From positions 1 through 46,831 of the forward strand of contig DASYZR010000086.1 of the NCBI GenBank assembly GCA_035945995.1: a stretch of DNA of 46,831 bases. The letters are read 5' to 3'. The position numbers were made by a program, and so were the translations under genes. Numbering within the stretch: the first letter of the stretch is position 1; each line of letters opens with the position of its first letter. Shown here piece by piece: positions 2,715 through 10,530 of the stretch. A model generated the notes under the pieces. It ran no database searches, had not been told where the DNA came from, and was given only the letters and a program-made list of their open reading frames with translations. The DNA comes from a bacterium (GTDB lineage: Bacteria; Sysuimicrobiota; Sysuimicrobiia; Sysuimicrobiales; Segetimicrobiaceae).

Positions 2715-3173
2715 ATGGGCGTAATGGTCATGTCATTCGTGTTCGATGCAGCGGTACTGGATTGGCTCAAGGCGGAAGGCGTGGACGCGCCTCCCGACTT
2801 CCGGCAAAGCCGGTGGCCGTCCCCCAACGAACTGCGGACGATCCTCGAGTCGCTCCCGGGGTACGCCGTCAGCTACCGAAGCAAACAGGGACACGATTGG
2901 GACGCCGAGGTGGTCGATGCGACACGCGGCTACGACGGCATGAGCGCGACGATCTGGGTCAAAGGCGTGCAGGATCCGGATGCGCCGCATCCGTTCAGCT
3001 TCCATAAGCCATGGCCCGAACTGGCGGTGGCGATTCTCGAGGTGATCTCCCGAACATGCGGCCCCCGCGTGGTGACCGACGATGTGTACGTCCGACCCGT
3101 GGTCATCACGGCGGGGTGCGATCCACGCGAGCGGACCGCATGCCTCGGCGATCCCAAACGCCCTCGCGGGTGA
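2715..3173 (+). CDS. Hypothetical protein, about 150 residues
   Basis: The protein has an N-terminal helix (FDAAVLDWLKAEG), a predicted mixed alpha/beta middle with several aromatic residues, and an Arg/Pro/Gly-rich tail. I recognise no family; no metal-binding cluster, signal peptide or membrane segment is evident. Three ATG codons lie in frame at 2715, 2724 and 2730; a GGGGTGG stretch before 2715 is close, so 2724 or 2730 may be the real start. It is divergent from the transglutaminase-like gene, with about 115 bases between, and precedes the decayed permease copy by ~70 bases. Codon use and composition fit the chromosome, so I take it as a real gene of unknown function. Confidence 0.55.
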   Translation: MGVMVMSFVFDAAVLDWLKAEGVDAPPDFRQSRWPSPNELRTILESLPGYAVSYRSKQGHDWDAEVVDATRGYDGMSATIWVKGVQDPDAPHPFSFHKPWPELAVAILEVISRTCGPRVVTDDVYVRPVVITAGCDPRERTACLGDPKRPRG

Positions 3174-3244
3174 ACCGCCGCATCCAGGCCGGGAACGGGT
3201 CGAGCCGGCGTGGCTGACACACCTCCAAATACCCCCGATCGCAC

Positions 3245-3635
3245 ATGGCCGCGGCGCTCATCCTGATTTCGGCCTGCCTTTACGGGATCTCGCCGATCCT
3301 GGCCAAGACGGCGTACGCGTACGGCGTCACGCCGCTCGTGCTCTTGACGTGGCGCGTCACGATCGCCGGCGACGCTGTTCTGGACGGTGTGCCTCGCGCT
3401 GCGGCAGGTGTCGCGGCTCGAGCGCCGCCTTCGCGCTCTCCATACTGCCGGCGTCCACCGCGTCCATGGTCGTCAATACCTCGCCGGTCCACGTCGCCTG
3501 GATGGAACGCCTCATGCTCGGCGAGCGGACGGCGCCGGGCGAGCTCGTCCTGCTCGGGATGATTGTGGCCGGCGCGGTCCTCGTGGCCGGGGACGCCCCG
3601 CCGCCGCTGCTGCTCGCCGTCATCCAAACGTGCTC
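3245..3635 (+). pseudogene. Decayed 5' copy of the DMT/EamA permease gene
   Basis: This stretch is a second, broken copy of the permease gene at 4348. Bases 3272-3366 match the intact copy without a difference, then one extra C (about 3367) shifts the frame. At 3431/3432 it lacks 62 bases of the intact gene (4534-4595) at a CTT microhomology. Near 3588-3592 it lacks a net 99 bases between two CCGGGACG repeats (4751 and 4851 in the intact gene). Homology stops at about 3635, where the vapC stop codon begins, so the 3' half is missing. All three frames are used in turn, so no permease can be made. It is probably a duplication remnant; a sequencing error could explain the single base but not the two deletions. 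Confidence 0.85.
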
Positions 3636-4065
3636 AGGGCAACCAGCGGACTCGAAGAGGACTTACGTCCCGGAGTTCCCGGGTCTTCAAAAAAGCCCGA
3701 ATATCCTCGTAGTGCTCATCCGGAAGAGACCATAGTTCGGCACCGGAGTGGATGGACGCCGCGGCGAGTATCAGGTCGACCGTCTTGCTGGTCTTGCCCG
3801 CGCCGGCCAACGCCCGACCGATCCGGGCGGCCGTGTAGCCGACCTCCTCGTCGGTTGCGACGTGCGGCAACGCCCGGAAGTCGGTTTGCCGCGCAGCGTA
3901 TTCCGACGCGTCTCGAATGCCGGCGAGCACTTCGGCGACGATCGGCGTCGCGACGGCCGCTTCCCCGGCCTTGAGCGCCTCGTGCACGGCCGCGACGAGC
4001 CGCGCCGCCGGTTGGGGGCGCAAGTACGAAATCCAGATCGACGAATCGATGAGCCGGAGCGACAC
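3634..4065 (-). CDS. vapC: VapC-like PIN-domain ribonuclease toxin
   Basis: A 143-residue PIN-domain protein, the expected size for VapC. The first conserved Asp is in LIDSSIWI at the N-terminus; a Glu follows in IVAEVLAGIR and an Asp in VDLILAAAS, giving the acidic Mg2+ site that cleaves RNA. The final Asp region is less clear (W-SLPDEHYEDI). The GTG start at 4065 directly follows the TAG stop of vapB, so the toxin is translationally coupled to its antitoxin. In this family VapC cleaves tRNA or rRNA unless bound by VapB. The 3' end coincides with the end of homology of the broken permease copy. A cytoplasmic toxin role is inferred from domain and partner. Confidence 0.85.
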   Translation of the reverse strand: MSLRLIDSSIWISYLRPQPAARLVAAVHEALKAGEAAVATPIVAEVLAGIRDASEYAARQTDFRALPHVATDEEVGYTAARIGRALAGAGKTSKTVDLILAAASIHSGAELWSLPDEHYEDIRAFLKTRELRDVSPLRVRWLP

Positions 4066-4272
4066 CTACCGTCCCTCGCGCATGGCACGGAGGTCCGCCC
4101 GGGTCCACCGCATGGAACTCTTGCCGGCCGCGGCGACTAGGCGCTCGACGCGCCGGCGCCGAACGAATTCGCGCAGGGCGATCTGGACGGCTTCGCGCTT
4201 GGTCGAGACCTTTGCGAGCCTGCGCGCTTCGTCGAGGAGTCCTTCGTCGATGTCGATGAGTGTCTTGGCCAT
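4066..4272 (-). CDS. vapB: VapB-like ribbon-helix-helix antitoxin
   Basis: A 68-residue protein beginning AKTLIDIDEGLLDEARRLAK, the short beta strand plus two helices of a VapB-type ribbon-helix-helix DNA-binding domain (residues 2-45). A C-terminal tail (about 46-68, WTRADLRAMREG) is of the kind that wraps the PIN toxin. The ATG at 4272 has GAGGTGGG upstream. The gene sits immediately before vapC, and a promoter with repeated GATATATAC sites lies just upstream, so autoregulation of the pair is likely, as is usual in this family. Confidence 0.87.
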   Translation of the reverse strand: MAKTLIDIDEGLLDEARRLAKVSTKREAVQIALREFVRRRRVERLVAAAGKSSMRWTRADLRAMREGR

Positions 4273-4347: not shown

Positions 4348-5286
4348 ATGGCCGCCGTTCTGATTCTCGTCTCCGCCTGCCTTTACGGGATCTCGCCGAT
4401 CCTGGCCAAGACGGCGTACGCGTACGGCGTCACGCCGCTCGTGCTCTTGACGTGGCGCGTCACGATCGCGGCGACGCTGTTCTGGACGGTGTGCCTCGCG
4501 CTGCGGCAGGTGTCCCGGCTCGAACGCCGCCTTGCCGGGACGCTGGTGGTGTTGGGGACGATCTTCGTGCCCCTCCAGGTGTACTCGTACTTCTTCGCGC
4601 TCTCCATACTGCCGGCATCCACCGCGTCCGTCGTGGTCAATACCTCGCCGGTGCACGTCGCCTGGATGGAACGCCTCATGCTCGGCGAACGGGCGGCGCC
4701 GGGCGAGCTCGTGCTGCTCGGGATGATTGTGGCCGGCGCGGTCCTCGTGGCCGGGACGACTCCGCACGCCGGTCACACGCTCGGCCTGGCGGCCCTCGGC
4801 GTGGCCACGCTGGGGTCGGCCTTCTATCTGGTGGTACAGCGCCGGCTCGTCCGGGACGCCCCGCCGCTTCTGCTGCTCGCCGTCATCCAGACGTGCTCGG
4901 CGGCCGTGTACTGGGTCGCCGGCCTGGTGACGGGCCGGGCCGCGGTCCTGCCGCCGGCCGCGGCGTTCGCCGCAATCGCGGGATCGGCCGTCGCGGCGTC
5001 ACTCGCCTCCCTGCTCGTTCTCATCGCGCTTCGGACGCTCGCCGCGACGCGCACGGCCATGCTGGGCATGCTGGAACCGGTCGTGACGGTCGGTCTCAGT
5101 GTCGCCCTGCTCGCCGACACAATGACCTGGCCGCGGGCGGTGGGCATCACGACCGTCCTTGCCGGCATCACGGTTTTCTACTGGCGGTTGTGGCAGGCCG
5201 GTCCGGCGACCGCCCTCCCGGAGCCGGACGCGGCGGGAGGACCGTCGCGGGGTCTCGGCGGCGGGTCCCCTACTCCGCGCGCATGA
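4348..5286 (+). CDS. DMT-superfamily (EamA) permease
   Basis: A 312-residue inner-membrane protein with about ten hydrophobic segments in two repeated halves, the EamA arrangement of the drug/metabolite transporter superfamily. It starts in a membrane helix (LILVSACLYGISPILAK), and each half carries the conserved pattern near A-L-x-x-L-P-A-S/T (SILPASTASVVVNTSPVHVAWMERL in the first half, MLGMLEPVVTVGLSVALLADTM in the second). Family members export amino acids, nucleotides or drugs; the substrate cannot be inferred. The start is the ATG at 4348, with only a weak upstream AGG. The 3' end overlaps the end of the converging STAS gene by 17 bases. A broken copy lies 1.1 kb upstream on the other side of vapBC. 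Confidence 0.88.
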   Translation: MAAVLILVSACLYGISPILAKTAYAYGVTPLVLLTWRVTIAATLFWTVCLALRQVSRLERRLAGTLVVLGTIFVPLQVYSYFFALSILPASTASVVVNTSPVHVAWMERLMLGERAAPGELVLLGMIVAGAVLVAGTTPHAGHTLGLAALGVATLGSAFYLVVQRRLVRDAPPLLLLAVIQTCSAAVYWVAGLVTGRAAVLPPAAAFAAIAGSAVAASLASLLVLIALRTLAATRTAMLGMLEPVVTVGLSVALLADTMTWPRAVGITTVLAGITVFYWRLWQAGPATALPEPDAAGGPSRGLGGGSPTPRA

Positions 5287-5626
5287 GCGCGAGCGCCTCC
5301 TCGACGCTCGTGTCGAGCGGGACGACCGCGTCGACGTGCGTGAGCAGCAGGATGCGGCGGATCAGCGATTTCTCCGGCAGCGCGATCCGGAACTTGAGAT
5401 GCCGCATCTTGAGCCGTTCGGCGAGCTCGAGGATCAACTGCACGCCCCGGCTGTCGAGATAGGTCACGCCGCTCAGATCGAGGACCAGCCCCGGCGCGGC
5501 ATTGGAGACCATGCCGAAAATCTGGCCGCGCACGTCGGCCGCATTGGCGAGATCGACCTCGCCGTCCAGCGCCGCGACCGGGATCCCGGCGTCTTCCATG
5601 ACGCGGACTTCGACCGCGGCCGTCAT
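5270..5626 (-). CDS. STAS-domain anti-sigma factor antagonist (RsbV/SpoIIAA type)
   Basis: A 118-residue single STAS domain. The conserved switch region LSGVTYLDSRG (51-61) holds the phosphorylatable Ser at position 59, followed by the helix that in RsbV contacts the anti-sigma kinase. In this family the unphosphorylated protein sequesters an RsbW-type kinase and frees a sigma factor; phosphorylation by the kinase reverses this and a PP2C phosphatase resets it. The ATG at 5626 overlaps the stop of the upstream PP2C/HATPase gene (ATGA), and GAGGAC lies upstream, so the two partners are translated together. It ends converging with, and overlapping by 17 bases, the permease gene. Confidence 0.93.
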   Translation of the reverse strand: MTAAVEVRVMEDAGIPVAALDGEVDLANAADVRGQIFGMVSNAAPGLVLDLSGVTYLDSRGVQLILELAERLKMRHLKFRIALPEKSLIRRILLLTHVDAVVPLDTSVEEALALMRAE

Positions 5627-7695
5627 GCCCGCACACGTCCTCTCTGCGCGATCCGGCGGCGCATCTGCACCACCGTGCCGCCGGGTCCGGACCCTACCTC
5701 CACGTCTCCCATGAGCGCCTCCATCAACTTGAGGCCGTGGCCCCGGTATTGCCCGCGCGCCGGCCGCCATTGCCCGCCGTCGCGGACCGCGGCCGTCAGG
5801 ACGTCGCCGGCGAACGACAACTCGCACTCGAAGGTGCCGTCGGTCGGGCCGTAGGCATGTTCGATCGCGTTGGCGCAGGCCTCGTTGATCGCCGTCGTCA
5901 CGTCGTAGGCGTCTTCGAGTTTGACCTCGGCGGCCTCGAGCCAGCGGCGGAGCGTCTGGCGCATCTGCGCGAGCGACGCCGGCACGGCCGGAAGCCGGAT
6001 CTGCAGACGGTCCGGCGTCAGGGGGGCCAGCCGCAGGGCGACGAGCGCGACATCGTCCTCGGCGGTCCGACCCTCGAGGGCCGCGGTCAGCACCCGGTCG
6101 ACCAGGCCGTCGATCGGGGCGTCGCCGTTCTCGGCCAGCGCCGCCGTCACCCGGGCCAGCCCCTCGTCGATGCTCTCGCGGCGGGCCTCGAGCAGGCCGT
6201 CGGTGCAGACGAGGATCGTCGAGTGCGGCGCCAGCGCGGCCGTCTCCTCGCGGTAGGTGATCCCGCGCACCCCGAGCGGCGGCGCGCCGCCGTCGAGTTG
6301 CGTCACGTCCCCCTCCGGGCCGACAACCAGCGGCGGCACGTGCCCGAGGTTCAGGTATCGCACGGTCCGGGTTTCGGGGTCGACGATCAGATACAGCAGC
6401 GTGGCCATCGTGCGATCGTCGACGAGCCGGGTCAGGCGCTCGGCGATCAGCGCCGGCGGATTGCCTTCGAGCGCGTAGGCGCGCACCGCGTTGCGCAACT
6501 GACCCATGACCGCCGCCGCCCATACGCCCCGGCCGGCGACGTCCCCGATGACGAGCCCGATCTGGCCGGCCGGCAGCGTGAGCACGTCGTACCAATCCCC
6601 GCCCACGGCTTCCTGGTTGCCCGGCAGGTACCGCGCGGACAGGGCCATCCCGGGAATCTCGGGCAGGCGCTCCGGCATCAGGCTTCGCTGGAGCGTCTCA
6701 GCGGTCCCGCGGGCGCGTTCGTAGAGGAGGGTGTTCTCCAGCGCGACGGCGAGTTGGAGCGCGAGGGCCTCGATATGCACGCGCGCCTCGGGCGCAAACG
6801 CCGCGCCGGCGGGGCGCGCCAGGATCATGGCCCCCAGGATGTGCCCGCTCCGCCCCCGGATCGGCAGCGTGAGGAACGACGACAGCGGACCGTCGCCGTT
6901 TGCGCGGGTCTCCGCCAGCGGTACCAGGACGGTTTCGGGCAGGCGGCCGGGACGGTGCTCCCCACAGATCGCCGCGAGCATGGGCGTGAGCACCTCGTCG
7001 GAGATGCCCGCCGATGCCACGTGGGGCGCGATCGCGATCTGCCAGCGCTCCCCGTCGGCGAACGCCACGGGCCCTCCATCGCCCCGGTAGAATCCCGCCA
7101 CCGCCAGGTCGGCGTCGGACAGCCGGCATGCCGCGTCGACGACGGAGCGCAGCACTTCCTCCACCTCGTGCGCCCCGTGAATGGCGGCCGCGACGTCGGT
7201 GAGCGCCCGGAGGTGTTCGATCGTCTGCCGCAACTCGGTCGTGCGCTCCTGCACCGTTTCCTCGAGGCGTCCGGCGTGGCGGGCGAGCGCGGCCTGCTGT
7301 TCGCCGATCTGCCGGCGCAGCTGACGCACCTGGACGGCCCGCCCGAGCGACGCGGCAAAGTAGTCGCGGTCGATGGGCTTTTGCACGTAGTCGTAGGCGC
7401 CGGCCCGCAGCGACCGGATCGCGAGGTCGTGCTCGCCGTGGCCGGTGATGAGCAGCACGGGCGTGTCCGGCCGGGCCGCGCGCACCTGCGCGAGGAGCGC
7501 CAGGCCGTCCGTTCCCGGCATCTTGATGTCGCTGACAATGGCATCGTAGTCGACGGCCGCGATCCGCTCCAGGGCCGGCGCGGCAGAGATGCAGGTGTCC
7601 ACGGTCGTGCCGGGCAGCCGGAGACGGATGGTCTCCGGCAGCGCCTCGAGCAGCGCCGGGTCGTCGTCGACGACGAGGACGCGGGGAGCGCTCAT
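5623..7695 (-). CDS. Receiver-GAF-SpoIIE phosphatase-HATPase fusion (RsbU/RsbW-like switch protein)
   Basis: A 690-residue signalling protein with four domains. Residues 1-120 form a response-regulator receiver: acidic pocket D10-D12, phospho-acceptor D56 in SDIKMPG, T84 and K106. Residues ~122-165 are a coiled coil, ~165-345 a GAF domain. Residues ~350-560 form a SpoIIE/PP2C serine phosphatase with metal-binding blocks GGDWYDV, IGDVAGRG, CTDGLLEAR and AEDDVALV. Residues ~570-690 form an RsbW-like ATPase with the N-box NEACANAIEHAY and GHGLKLMEAL. Phosphorylation of the receiver should control dephosphorylation of the STAS partner, while the ATPase domain could rephosphorylate it or bind a sigma factor. 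The ATG at 7695 overlaps the kinase stop (ATGA). Upstream in-frame codons belong to the kinase's other frame. All key residues appear intact. Confidence 0.93.
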   Translation of the reverse strand: MSAPRVLVVDDDPALLEALPETIRLRLPGTTVDTCISAAPALERIAAVDYDAIVSDIKMPGTDGLALLAQVRAARPDTPVLLITGHGEHDLAIRSLRAGAYDYVQKPIDRDYFAASLGRAVQVRQLRRQIGEQQAALARHAGRLEETVQERTTELRQTIEHLRALTDVAAAIHGAHEVEEVLRSVVDAACRLSDADLAVAGFYRGDGGPVAFADGERWQIAIAPHVASAGISDEVLTPMLAAICGEHRPGRLPETVLVPLAETRANGDGPLSSFLTLPIRGRSGHILGAMILARPAGAAFAPEARVHIEALALQLAVALENTLLYERARGTAETLQRSLMPERLPEIPGMALSARYLPGNQEAVGGDWYDVLTLPAGQIGLVIGDVAGRGVWAAAVMGQLRNAVRAYALEGNPPALIAERLTRLVDDRTMATLLYLIVDPETRTVRYLNLGHVPPLVVGPEGDVTQLDGGAPPLGVRGITYREETAALAPHSTILVCTDGLLEARRESIDEGLARVTAALAENGDAPIDGLVDRVLTAALEGRTAEDDVALVALRLAPLTPDRLQIRLPAVPASLAQMRQTLRRWLEAAEVKLEDAYDVTTAINEACANAIEHAYGPTDGTFECELSFAGDVLTAAVRDGGQWRPARGQYRGHGLKLMEALMGDVEVGSGPGGTVVQMRRRIAQRGRVRA

Positions 7696-8903
7696 GAGAT
7701 GCTGGGCTCGAGCACCGCTTCCTGCATTTGCGGTAGCTGCACCAGAAACGCCGCGCCGGGCGCGTCCTGCCTGACGCAGGTGATCGACCCTCCGTGGTCC
7801 TTGAGGATCCCGTACGTGATTGCGAGGCCGAGGCCGGTCCCCTTCCCCACCCCTTTGGTCGTGAAGAACGGATCGAAAATGCGCCGCTCGAGGCCGGGGA
7901 GGATCCCGGGGCCGGTGTCGCGCACGAGGACGTCGGCCCACCCCGGCCGGGCCGTGCTGCGGATCTCGATGCGCCGGTCGCCCGCCGCCTCGGCCAGCGC
8001 GTCGCGCGCGTTGGTCAGCAGGTTGATGAACACCTGCTCCAGCTGGATCGGGCTCGCGGCCACGATCATGTCCTCGGTCGAGAGGTCGAGCGCGACGTCG
8101 ATGTCGCGGAGGCGCAACTGCTCCTGCATGAGCGACAGCGCGTGCAGCACGACGTCGTTGATCGAGACCGGCTCGCGGCCGACCGGCGCGGTCCGGCCGA
8201 ACGTCCGCAGGTGCGAGATGATCTCCGTCGCCTTCCGGACCTGCCCCATCGCGCGATCCAGATCCGTCACGATCCGATCCAGGTCGAGGTCCTGCTCTGC
8301 CCGGCGGATGCGGATCTGGTCCAACACGTTGCCGATGAACAGACCGATGTTGTTGAGGGGGTTGTTGAGCTCGTGCGCCACGCCCGTGGTGAGCTCGCCG
8401 AGCGTGGCCAGTTTGCCGGCCTGCACGAGCTGTTCCTGCTTGTCGCGCAGATCCTGCTCGCGGCGCTGCATTTCGAGCGAGATCTCGTGCAGATCGCTCA
8501 TGATGTGGATCATCGCGCGGCGCGCCTGGCCGAGCCGCAGATTGGAGCGGTGTGAGTCCTGCAGGATGTGCAGCAGCGCGCGCCGCGAATTGTCGAGCCG
8601 CTCCGTCTGATGCGCCAGGCGCCGCCGGTCCTGCTCGTAGTCGACGAGAATGTGCAGCATGGCCTTGCGCTGGTTGCCCAGCCGCCGGTTCACGTCGCGC
8701 AGGTCGGCCATGATGTGGAGCATCGCGCGGCGCTGCTCGTCGCGCTGGCGCAGCCGCGACTCCAGTTCGGCGATGCGGGCGCGCAGCCGGGCGTGCTCGG
8801 CCGGCCGGCCCTCCTCGTCCGCGGCGTGGTCCGCGAACCGCGGCGGTGCGGGCTCCCCTACTGCTGCGATTCGCCCCGCAGCCGCTCGACCTCGCTCTGC
8901 CAC
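7692..8903 (-). CDS. Soluble histidine kinase with four-fold His-containing coiled-coil repeat
   Basis: A 403-residue kinase. The C-terminal half is a standard HisKA-HATPase pair: phospho-acceptor H177 in GVAHELNNPL, N-box NLLTNARDAL (~294-303), DTGPGI (329-334), FDPFFTTK and GTGLGLAI. There is no membrane helix or PAS domain. The N-terminal half (~40-160) is a long coiled coil with four copies of R-R/K-A-M/L-L/I-H-I-M/L, their histidines at 63, 84, 112 and 133, i.e. 21, 28 and 21 residues apart, all multiples of seven. The GTG at 8903 is preceded by AGAGGTGGAG and lies inside the PAS gene (46-base overlap); no better start is in frame. It probably phosphorylates the receiver encoded next and takes input from the PAS protein. 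Confidence 0.92.
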   Translation of the reverse strand: MAERGRAAAGRIAAVGEPAPPRFADHAADEEGRPAEHARLRARIAELESRLRQRDEQRRAMLHIMADLRDVNRRLGNQRKAMLHILVDYEQDRRRLAHQTERLDNSRRALLHILQDSHRSNLRLGQARRAMIHIMSDLHEISLEMQRREQDLRDKQEQLVQAGKLATLGELTTGVAHELNNPLNNIGLFIGNVLDQIRIRRAEQDLDLDRIVTDLDRAMGQVRKATEIISHLRTFGRTAPVGREPVSINDVVLHALSLMQEQLRLRDIDVALDLSTEDMIVAASPIQLEQVFINLLTNARDALAEAAGDRRIEIRSTARPGWADVLVRDTGPGILPGLERRIFDPFFTTKGVGKGTGLGLAITYGILKDHGGSITCVRQDAPGAAFLVQLPQMQEAVLEPSIS

Positions 8904-10180
8904 CGCTCCACCTCTTTTTCGAGGGCGATCATCTTGATTTCGCGGCCGACCACGACCTCCTCGAACTTCTCGAGTTCGAGGATCTTCTCTTGAAGCTCGA
9001 GCTTCGACTTCTCGAGGTCGCGGACGACGCGCTCGTAGGCGCGCATGTCGCGAAGGATGCCGATGACGCCGATGACCTTGCCGTCGGAGTCGCGGAGCGC
9101 CGAGGCGTTGAGGCCGGTGGGGATGACTTCGCCGGTGGCCGCCCGCGGGTTGAGGCGGACGTTGCGGATGACGCCGCGCTCGACGACTTCGCGCAGCGCG
9201 GCGAGGAACTCACGGGTCTCCTGCGGCGAGATGAACCGGGACAGCGATTGCTCGATCACCTCGTCGCGGCGGAACCCGAGCACTTCCGACACCGCGTCGT
9301 TGGTGTGAAGGATCTTGCCTTCGAGGTCGGAGACGAACACGGGGTCCGGGGCGTTCTTGATGAGGCTCTCCGCGTAGGCGCGGGCCTTGTCGAGCTCGCG
9401 CATGTCCCGGAGGATGCCGATCGCGCCGATCGCCTTGCCGTCGGAGTCGCGGAGCGCCGAGGCGTTGAGCGTCGTCGGGATCCCCTCGCCGGTGGCGCTG
9501 CGCGGGTTGAGGCGGACGTTGCGGATGACGCCGCGCTCGACGACTTCGCGCAGCGCGGCGAGGAACTCGCGGGTCTCCTCGGGGGAGATGAACCGCGAGA
9601 GCGACTGCTCGATGACTTCGTCGCGGCGGAACCCGAGGAGCTGCGACACGGCGTCGTTGGACTCGATGATCTTGCCTTCGAGGTCGGAGACGAACACGGG
9701 GTCCGGCGCGTTCTTGATGAGGGCTTCCGCATAGGCGCGGGCTTTGCCGATTTCGCGCATGTCCCGGAGGATGCCGATCGCGCCGATCACTTTGCCGTCG
9801 GCGTCCCGGAGGGCGGACGCGTTGAGCGCCGTCGGAATGATCTCCGCGGTCGCACTCTTGGGGTTGAGGCGGACGTTGCGGGTGACGCCGCGCTCGACGA
9901 CTTCGCGCAGCGCGGCGAGGAACTCGCGGGTCTCCTCGGGGGAGATGAACCGCGAGAGCGACTGCTCGATCACCTCGTCCTGACGGAAGCCAAGCAGTTC
10001 CGAAACCGCGTCGTTGGCCTGGAGGATGCGGCCCTCCAGGTCGGAGACGAACACCGGATCGGGCGCGTTCGCGATAATGATGTTGGCGTCGAGAATGCCC
10101 CCCACCCTCGCACCGTCAAGCCGGTCGTGCGCGACACGCGTGCTCTGCAAGACGTCTGTGGATTGCCGTTTCCGTTCCAC
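8858..10180 (-). CDS. Triple-PAS sensor protein without kinase domain
   Basis: About 440 residues: a short N-terminus, three consecutive PAS domains and a C-terminal coiled coil (last ~55 residues, rich in Glu, Lys, Leu). Each PAS copy begins NAPDPVFVSDLEG, carries NDAVS, GFRxDEVIEQSL and a second block ending DGKxIGxIGILRDM; the copies start 119 residues apart and differ at only about 11-13 of 105 positions. There is no transmembrane segment, kinase, GGDEF or output domain. The GTG at 10180 is chosen because GGAG lies 5 bases upstream; a GTG at 10186 is too close to that site. The end overlaps the kinase start by 46 bases, so the coiled coils of the two proteins may pair to form a split sensor kinase. 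Ligand unknown. Confidence 0.88.
   Translation of the reverse strand: MERKRQSTDVLQSTRVAHDRLDGARVGGILDANIIIANAPDPVFVSDLEGRILQANDAVSELLGFRQDEVIEQSLSRFISPEETREFLAALREVVERGVTRNVRLNPKSATAEIIPTALNASALRDADGKVIGAIGILRDMREIGKARAYAEALIKNAPDPVFVSDLEGKIIESNDAVSQLLGFRRDEVIEQSLSRFISPEETREFLAALREVVERGVIRNVRLNPRSATGEGIPTTLNASALRDSDGKAIGAIGILRDMRELDKARAYAESLIKNAPDPVFVSDLEGKILHTNDAVSEVLGFRRDEVIEQSLSRFISPQETREFLAALREVVERGVIRNVRLNPRAATGEVIPTGLNASALRDSDGKVIGVIGILRDMRAYERVVRDLEKSKLELQEKILELEKFEEVVVGREIKMIALEKEVERWQSEVERLRGESQQ
9038..10069 (-). repeat. Three tandem 357-bp PAS-coding repeats
   Basis: DNA units at 9713-10069, 9356-9712 and about 9038-9355 encode the three PAS copies. Long stretches are the same base for base between units, for instance the segment coding for SRFISP to VVERG. 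The third unit is shorter because its final linker diverges into the coiled coil. Such similarity implies recent triplication or ongoing gene conversion, and makes copy number prone to change by recombination. Confidence 0.9.
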
Positions 10181-10530
10181 AGCCACTCCCCCCGATCGGA
10201 TGCGGTAAACGTTCCGCGTTCGCGGCTCTCAAAAGCCCCTAATGTGAAAATCTCCCCCTGCGCGACCTCGTTCAAACGTGAATAATGCAGGCGCCGCACC
10301 ATGTCTGACGATCGGCGGCTCGTTATACGATCAAGTGTTCGGTAACGGGCGGCCAACAGCGGGAAGGCTCGGGTCGTGACCGCTGGAGCACCCGATCGCT
10401 CGCTACGCCGCCCGGCCGGCGCGTTCGCGCGCCGCAGGACCGCTCTTTCCTGTGGGCGAACGACCTCCGGGCCGCGCCTCACGGTGACGCGGCCCAAGCC
10501 GCCCGCCCGGGCGCCTCGGGGTGACGATCG
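10181..10530. other. Intergenic region between divergent PAS and M24 genes
   Basis: This 350-base gap separates the divergent signalling operon (minus) and the M24 peptidase gene (plus), so both promoters should lie here. A TATAAC-like -10 on the minus strand (plus positions 10322-10327) has no good -35, and I see no convincing promoter, hairpin or small ORF. Short open frames over the right half lack ribosome binding sites. Confidence 0.4.

Follow-up and report, generated by a model that had tools for sequence, protein, structure and literature searches.

The four histidine-bearing motifs of a soluble histidine kinase, encoded in the stretch of bacterial DNA analysed here (46,831 nucleotides, “the window”), are probably the histidine version of a 21-residue docking repeat, and the coiled coil carrying them would be a docking or receiving platform for a PAS protein; this reading was drawn from the sequences of the kinase and its relatives. 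The results support a two-protein sensor kinase module, made up of a PAS array with a coil, a repeat-coil kinase and a REC protein.

In most kinases, the signal comes from a domain in the same chain. Pfam detected HisKA and HATPase_c, and nothing else, in the kinase of the window:

7692 to 8903, minus strand: soluble histidine kinase, carrier of the repeats (403 aa, GTG start)
8235 to 8402, minus strand: HisKA/DHp domain (Pfam HisKA, residues 168-223)
8373 to 8375, minus strand: phospho-acceptor His177, in the motif AHELNNPL
7728 to 8051, minus strand: HATPase_c catalytic domain (Pfam, residues 285-392, E 7.5e-20)

With HisKA (DHp), HATPase_c and the phospho-acceptor histidine all present, the protein is a HisKA-type kinase. 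The HisKA match (E 1.5e-5, 25.4 bits) was slightly below the Pfam cut-off of 26.9; the AHELNNPLN phospho-acceptor motif was invariant in the family alignment except at one column position, and ordinary histidine-kinase structures were among the best 50 matches listed in a fold search with the kinase model. The GTG start is preceded by AAAGAGGTGGAG. The kinase gene shares 46 nt with the PAS gene and 4 nt, as ATGA, with that of the response regulator.

An earlier note, made from the DNA alone, had described four R-R/K-A-M/L-L/I-H-I-M/L-x-D motifs in kinase residues 58-140 (8732-8484), with histidines 63, 84, 112 and 133 spaced by 21, 28 and 21 residues. Both the residue range and the positions were recovered as claimed:

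8703 to 8732, minus strand: repeat motif 1, RRAMLHIMAD, residues 58-67, His63 (codon 8715-8717)
8640 to 8669, minus strand: repeat motif 2, RKAMLHILVD, residues 79-88, His84 (codon 8652-8654)
8556 to 8585, minus strand: repeat motif 3, RRALLHILQD, residues 107-116, His112 (codon 8568-8570)
8493 to 8522, minus strand: repeat motif 4, RRAMIHIMSD, residues 128-137, His133 (codon 8505-8507)

The repeats are far above chance: the internal repeat score of the coil was reached by none of 2000 full shuffles and by none of 2000 shuffles which kept the heptad phase of each residue. The plus-strand echo of the motif was also present in the DNA (8502, 8565, 8649 and 8712), but one copy is AATGTGCA and not GATGTGCA. 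Both CAC and CAT codons were used at the four main histidine sites in the family, so the constraint is on the protein and not on the DNA. Two extra histidines, His118 and His139, are located at +6 from His112 and His133; the first is conserved and the second is not.

The motif occupied fixed heptad places (n = 51 four-repeat members): Arg at e, Arg/Lys at f, Ala at g, hydrophobic residues at a and b, His at c, Ile at d, a hydrophobic residue at e and Asp at g. Position a was hydrophobic in nearly all heptads, from the repeats through the DHp domain, in the same members. The hydrophobic moment was about 160 degrees away from the ladder histidines, which take the outer c position; the ladder would therefore be on the outside of a two-helix coil. 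Heptad analysis and helix prediction bore out the heptad register, the long coil and the location of all the histidines on one face. The predicted helix was as follows:

8331 to 8789, minus strand: residues 39-191, predicted by AlphaFold2 as one helix linking the repeats with the DHp helix

The AlphaFold2 monomer of the coil segment was one helix (2-154 of 155 residues, pLDDT 85.5), and the model of the longer protein showed the same helix with a short low-confidence break at 120-123 (pLDDT about 55). A hairpin fold of the coil was set aside, given the coil-only model without the 120-123 break and the deletions in heptad steps. In the monomer model, one long predicted helix enters the DHp domain (an S-helix being defined as a parallel coil of about 40 residues ahead of a signalling output domain); a parallel strand orientation and the partner of the kinase coil are presumptive.

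Sixty-one distinct His-type relatives, spread over several phyla, were gathered from a scan of a genome collection and from further genome searches. About 43 motif-bearing relatives came from the scan, most of them with 55-72% identity, including isolates of Ktedonobacteria (Dictyobacter, Tengunoibacter, Thermosporothrix and Ktedonobacter) and metagenome bins labelled Rokubacteria, Gemmatimonadetes, Acidobacteria, Actinobacteria, Armatimonadetes, Betaproteobacteria and Thermomicrobiales; some of the bins apparently came from one soil project, and their taxon labels may be wrong. The kinase tree was ordered partly by phylum (12 changes vs. a minimum possible of 9). The nearest kinase outside the genus was that of Centralia_MAG_45 (L002), in a group also containing two “Armatimonadetes” groundwater bins (L003, L012).

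The 21/28/21 spacing was identical in 50 of the 61 relatives, with the histidines at -114, -93, -65 and -44 from the phospho-acceptor histidine. The remaining 11 had whole-repeat deletions, or a motif missed by the search pattern owing to an Arg to Ser change (L084, L085). Shortened forms had lost exactly 21 (L034, L036, L037), 28 (L039, L040, L041) or 49 residues (L089, L090, L091), and heptad phase was therefore kept. Only one non-histidine residue was seen in the ladder, an Asp in repeat 1 of L032, which belongs to the 50 with unchanged spacing. Mean pairwise identity was 0.77 in the coil, 0.775 in the DHp domain and 0.655 in the CA/ATPase region. The outward c, b and e positions of the coil were conserved (n = 51 four-repeat members), and a plain dimer coil need not conserve them.

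The repeats (residues 58-140) had no match above the cut-off in Pfam, NCBIfam or PHROGs, and in these three collections the claim that the ladder belongs to no described repeat family held. No description of the histidine ladder, the 21-residue repeat, a detached PAS sensor or the PAS/kinase pair was found in the open-licence literature under the terms searched. A paper on a “split histidine kinase” reportedly concerns the splitting of a kinase's own catalytic domains, which is different from the PAS/kinase pair.

A search with the coil profile revealed a second soluble kinase in genome G024, encoded elsewhere than its normal His-type pair and carrying six 21-residue units, RALLNILEDFxxEKxxLE. 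Further kinases of this Asn-type were found with the G024 sequence in phylum samples of Ktedonobacter, a gp5 Acidobacteria bin and Desulfonema. Thirty-nine units gave the consensus TQ[RK]A-V-L-N-I-L-[ED]-D-F-x-x-E-[KR]-x-x-L-E, spaced by 21 residues in 28 of 29 cases (the sole spacing of 42 skips a unit, RATSNILED, missed by the pattern), and the Asn was also on the outer face (152 degrees). The His-type and Asn-type profiles aligned with an hhalign probability of 97% (E 3e-11). Asn-type repeat kinases occurred in several phyla, no name or family model for them was encountered, and none of their repeats were found in plasmids and viral contigs.

The two types share the 21-residue length, the A-x-x-[N/H]-I-L-x-D core, a soluble kinase and an upstream tandem-PAS/VGRE-coil gene. 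In the Asn-type, by contrast, Asn replaces His, the 2-6 repeats are uniformly spaced by 21 residues, and the kinase cores belong to other subfamilies (HisKA carrying AHDLRAPL, HisKA_2-like, PAS-containing). On these alignments, both kinases can be assigned to a RAxL[N/H]I[L/M]xD coil of three-heptad tandem units, with R/K at -4, A at -3, N/H at 0 and D at +4; within this class, the His-type has one 28-residue step. Histidine is not essential to the repeat, and the ladder is a variant of a wider 21-residue repeat. The earlier claim that no kinase input of this form had been described stood insofar as no known family was matched, but the input form is more widely distributed and not specific to histidine.

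The gene preceding the kinase encodes the proposed partner:

8858 to 10186, minus strand: soluble protein with three near-identical PAS domains and a C-terminal coil, proposed sensor (Pfam and copy comparison)
8861 to 9031, minus strand: proposed docking partner, the coil at the C-terminus of the PAS protein (ELEKFEEVVVGREIKMIALEKEVE, residues 386-442)

Tandem-PAS proteins of the family end in a coil of the form “VGRE..MI.LKKE”. The PAS/VGRE-coil gene was directly upstream of the kinase in 59 of the 60 testable His-type loci (L006, which begins at a contig edge, was left out), often with overlapping start and stop codons, and both proteins co-occurred in exactly the same 10 of the 61 relatives' genomes. 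All 11 Asn-type loci (L092 (G024:C161), L110, L111, L113, L132, L142-L144 and L146-L148) had a tandem-PAS protein directly upstream, with the coil RLAELERFQKLTVGRELKMIELKKEIEEL or near it, and the PAS and kinase genes overlapped by ATGA in 8 of the 10 examined. Within the Desulfobacterota sample, the closest VGRE-coil matches came from the three genomes that have Asn-type kinases. The number of PAS domains (2-4) was not correlated with the number of repeats (2-4) in the His-type loci. No fusion of the PAS protein and the kinase in one chain was seen among the relatives' loci; long open frames in L010 and L038 were ruled out as fusions, since the PAS gene is read in a different frame. Gene neighbourhood is evidence of shared function and not of contact; the earlier guess that the kinase coil pairs with that of the PAS protein is favoured by this genome context, and direct contact is proposed.

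Identity among the three PAS copies (8858-10186) is 80-87% for the protein and 79-86% for the DNA, and the PAS proteins of relatives have 2-4 similar copies, which suggests repeated duplication or homogenisation. The His-ladder kinase of a relative of the Ktedonobacteria (L183 in G288, 2915-4075, minus strand) was found without the partner PAS gene at that place, an unrelated PAS kinase of another type being located 300 bp upstream instead; it is a natural exception for whether the ladder needs the PAS partner.

The repeats may be regarded as a docking surface because their outward residues are conserved, the length of the coil changes by whole units, and the repeat is linked to the VGRE coil in two diverged subfamilies. 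We infer physical docking with one site per repeat, a switch mechanism and a sensor role for the PAS protein. A parallel dimeric repeat coil would run unbroken into the DHp helix of a kinase devoid of a sensor domain of its own, and the separate upstream tandem-PAS protein would be the sensor. Its C-terminal VGRE coil would lie against the outer face of the kinase coil, one contact per repeat, on a surface formed by Arg -4, Ala -3, His/Asn 0 and Asp +4 together with the hydrophobic b/e residues that flank them. By twisting or shifting the kinase coil, a change in the PAS array would set kinase activity towards the coupled REC protein. More tentatively, and with somewhat less than even chances, these kinases may form an unnamed class of two-protein sensor kinases, in which a modular rod of 21-residue repeats on the kinase offers several docking sites to the VGRE coil of a tandem-PAS protein, and His and Asn repeats are two interaction codes by which paralogous pairs within a cell are kept distinct; one pair of each type is present in G024.

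The coil carries two hydrophobic stripes (a/d and b/e) and a conserved polar stripe on one helix, and these stripes, like the change of repeat number by whole units, would also be expected if the outer faces of the dimers assembled into tetramers or chemoreceptor-like arrays independently of the PAS protein, with the repeats tuning cooperativity. Such higher-order self-assembly is unlikely, as it leaves unexplained the near-constant linkage to a VGRE-coil protein in both subfamilies.

The sensing of metal, haem or pH had been suggested as the reason for the ladder: the four histidines per chain (eight per dimer) would bind haem or metal, or titrate with pH, altering coil stability and kinase activity. 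Free histidines on a coil surface could titrate, and they are nearly invariant at four sites, at the same heptad position, over large distances; however, they take the outer c positions at intervals of 21-28 residues and have no His or Cys partner at i/i+3 or i/i+4, so that in the sequence register there is no neighbouring ligand pair such as a metal or haem coil has (His/Cys ligands close in space, in the same helix or opposite one another across the core). Furthermore, Asp was tolerated once (L032), and homologous repeats with the same partner gene carry Asn at each of these sites, so chemistry restricted to histidine is disfavoured. Sensing by the ladder is therefore disfavoured, and we consider it very unlikely. 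The least probable reading, with about one chance in ten, is a plain rigid rod or spacer, whose repeats would merely dimerise the kinase and set distance, their similarity reflecting recent internal duplication: the heptads are continuous into the DHp helix and length changes by heptad steps, but conservation of the coil equals that of the phospho-acceptor domain, outward residues are near-invariant, and histidine codons change synonymously freely.

The proposed output is encoded by the genes which follow the kinase in the window:

5623 to 7695, minus strand: response regulator REC-GAF-PP2C(SpoIIE)-HATPase_c_2, proposed output (shares ATGA with the kinase gene)
5270 to 5626, minus strand: putative STAS-type anti-sigma-factor antagonist, last of the coupled set (open reading frame; conserved next to the kinases L002, L003 and L012)

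Overlaps of 4 nt join the kinase gene to the REC-PP2C gene and the latter to the STAS gene, and the output here would be the REC-GAF-PP2C protein acting on the STAS protein. In the 15 relatives where it was identified, the gene after the kinase encoded a REC protein with a conserved receiver and a variable effector: GAF-PP2C-HATPase in the window, L002 and L135, PP2C-HATPase in L012, a second kinase in Ktedonobacteria and some others, and a sigma-54 activator in L005 and L024. The REC-GAF-PP2C regulator (5623-7695, minus strand) also has an ERT-containing helix between REC and GAF, near QERTTEL, which resembles an S-helix.

The S-helix is a parallel dimeric coil between input and kinase with a conserved polar constellation, proposed as a conformational relay; it is a segment of about 40 residues with an ERT signature at c-d-e of the central heptad, and its outer positions are the least conserved (Anantharaman et al. 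2006, PMC1592074). The repeat coil is similar in standing ahead of a kinase and in its conserved polar residues, but differs in its 2-6 tandem 21-residue repeats, in its conserved outer positions and in an input proposed to come from a separate protein; the ERT signature was absent from the kinase coil consensus. As in YF1/FixL-type PAS-coil-DHp kinases and LvrB, the coil runs into the DHp helix, and their structures (PDB 4gcz, 8vc9) aligned to the last 50 coil residues and the DHp domain; in those proteins a sensor domain is fused to the coil, whereas the coil of the window kinase has no domain at its N-terminus. The output resembles RsbU/RsbV/RsbW-type partner switching, in that the window encodes PP2C and HATPase within a single REC protein and a STAS-like protein after it, but here PP2C is in a REC-domain protein with a dedicated kinase, and other outputs occur in other phyla beside the same input module.

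The conservation of the gene pair points to a separate sensor and kinase which meet via a repeat coil lengthened or shortened in whole units, with interchangeable outputs. If true, this would provide a plug-in input for synthetic two-component circuits, would account for a set of soluble kinases without sensors in Chloroflexota, Acidobacteriota, Desulfobacterota and candidate phyla, and would make the role of the coil surface residue (His vs. Asn) directly testable.

Twenty other genomes of the Desulfobacterota sample, in none of which a repeat kinase was detected, encode proteins that end in diverged VGRE-like coils, in other gene settings where inspected; the coil is therefore not dedicated to such kinases. 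In several Desulfobacterota (L157, L158, L161, L162, L172), the diverged-VGRE-coil protein was directly before an aspartyl-tRNA synthetase-like gene. In L168, L169 and L171, it was directly before a small protein of about 181 aa, possibly V4R-like; these small proteins are perhaps another partner class of the VGRE coil.
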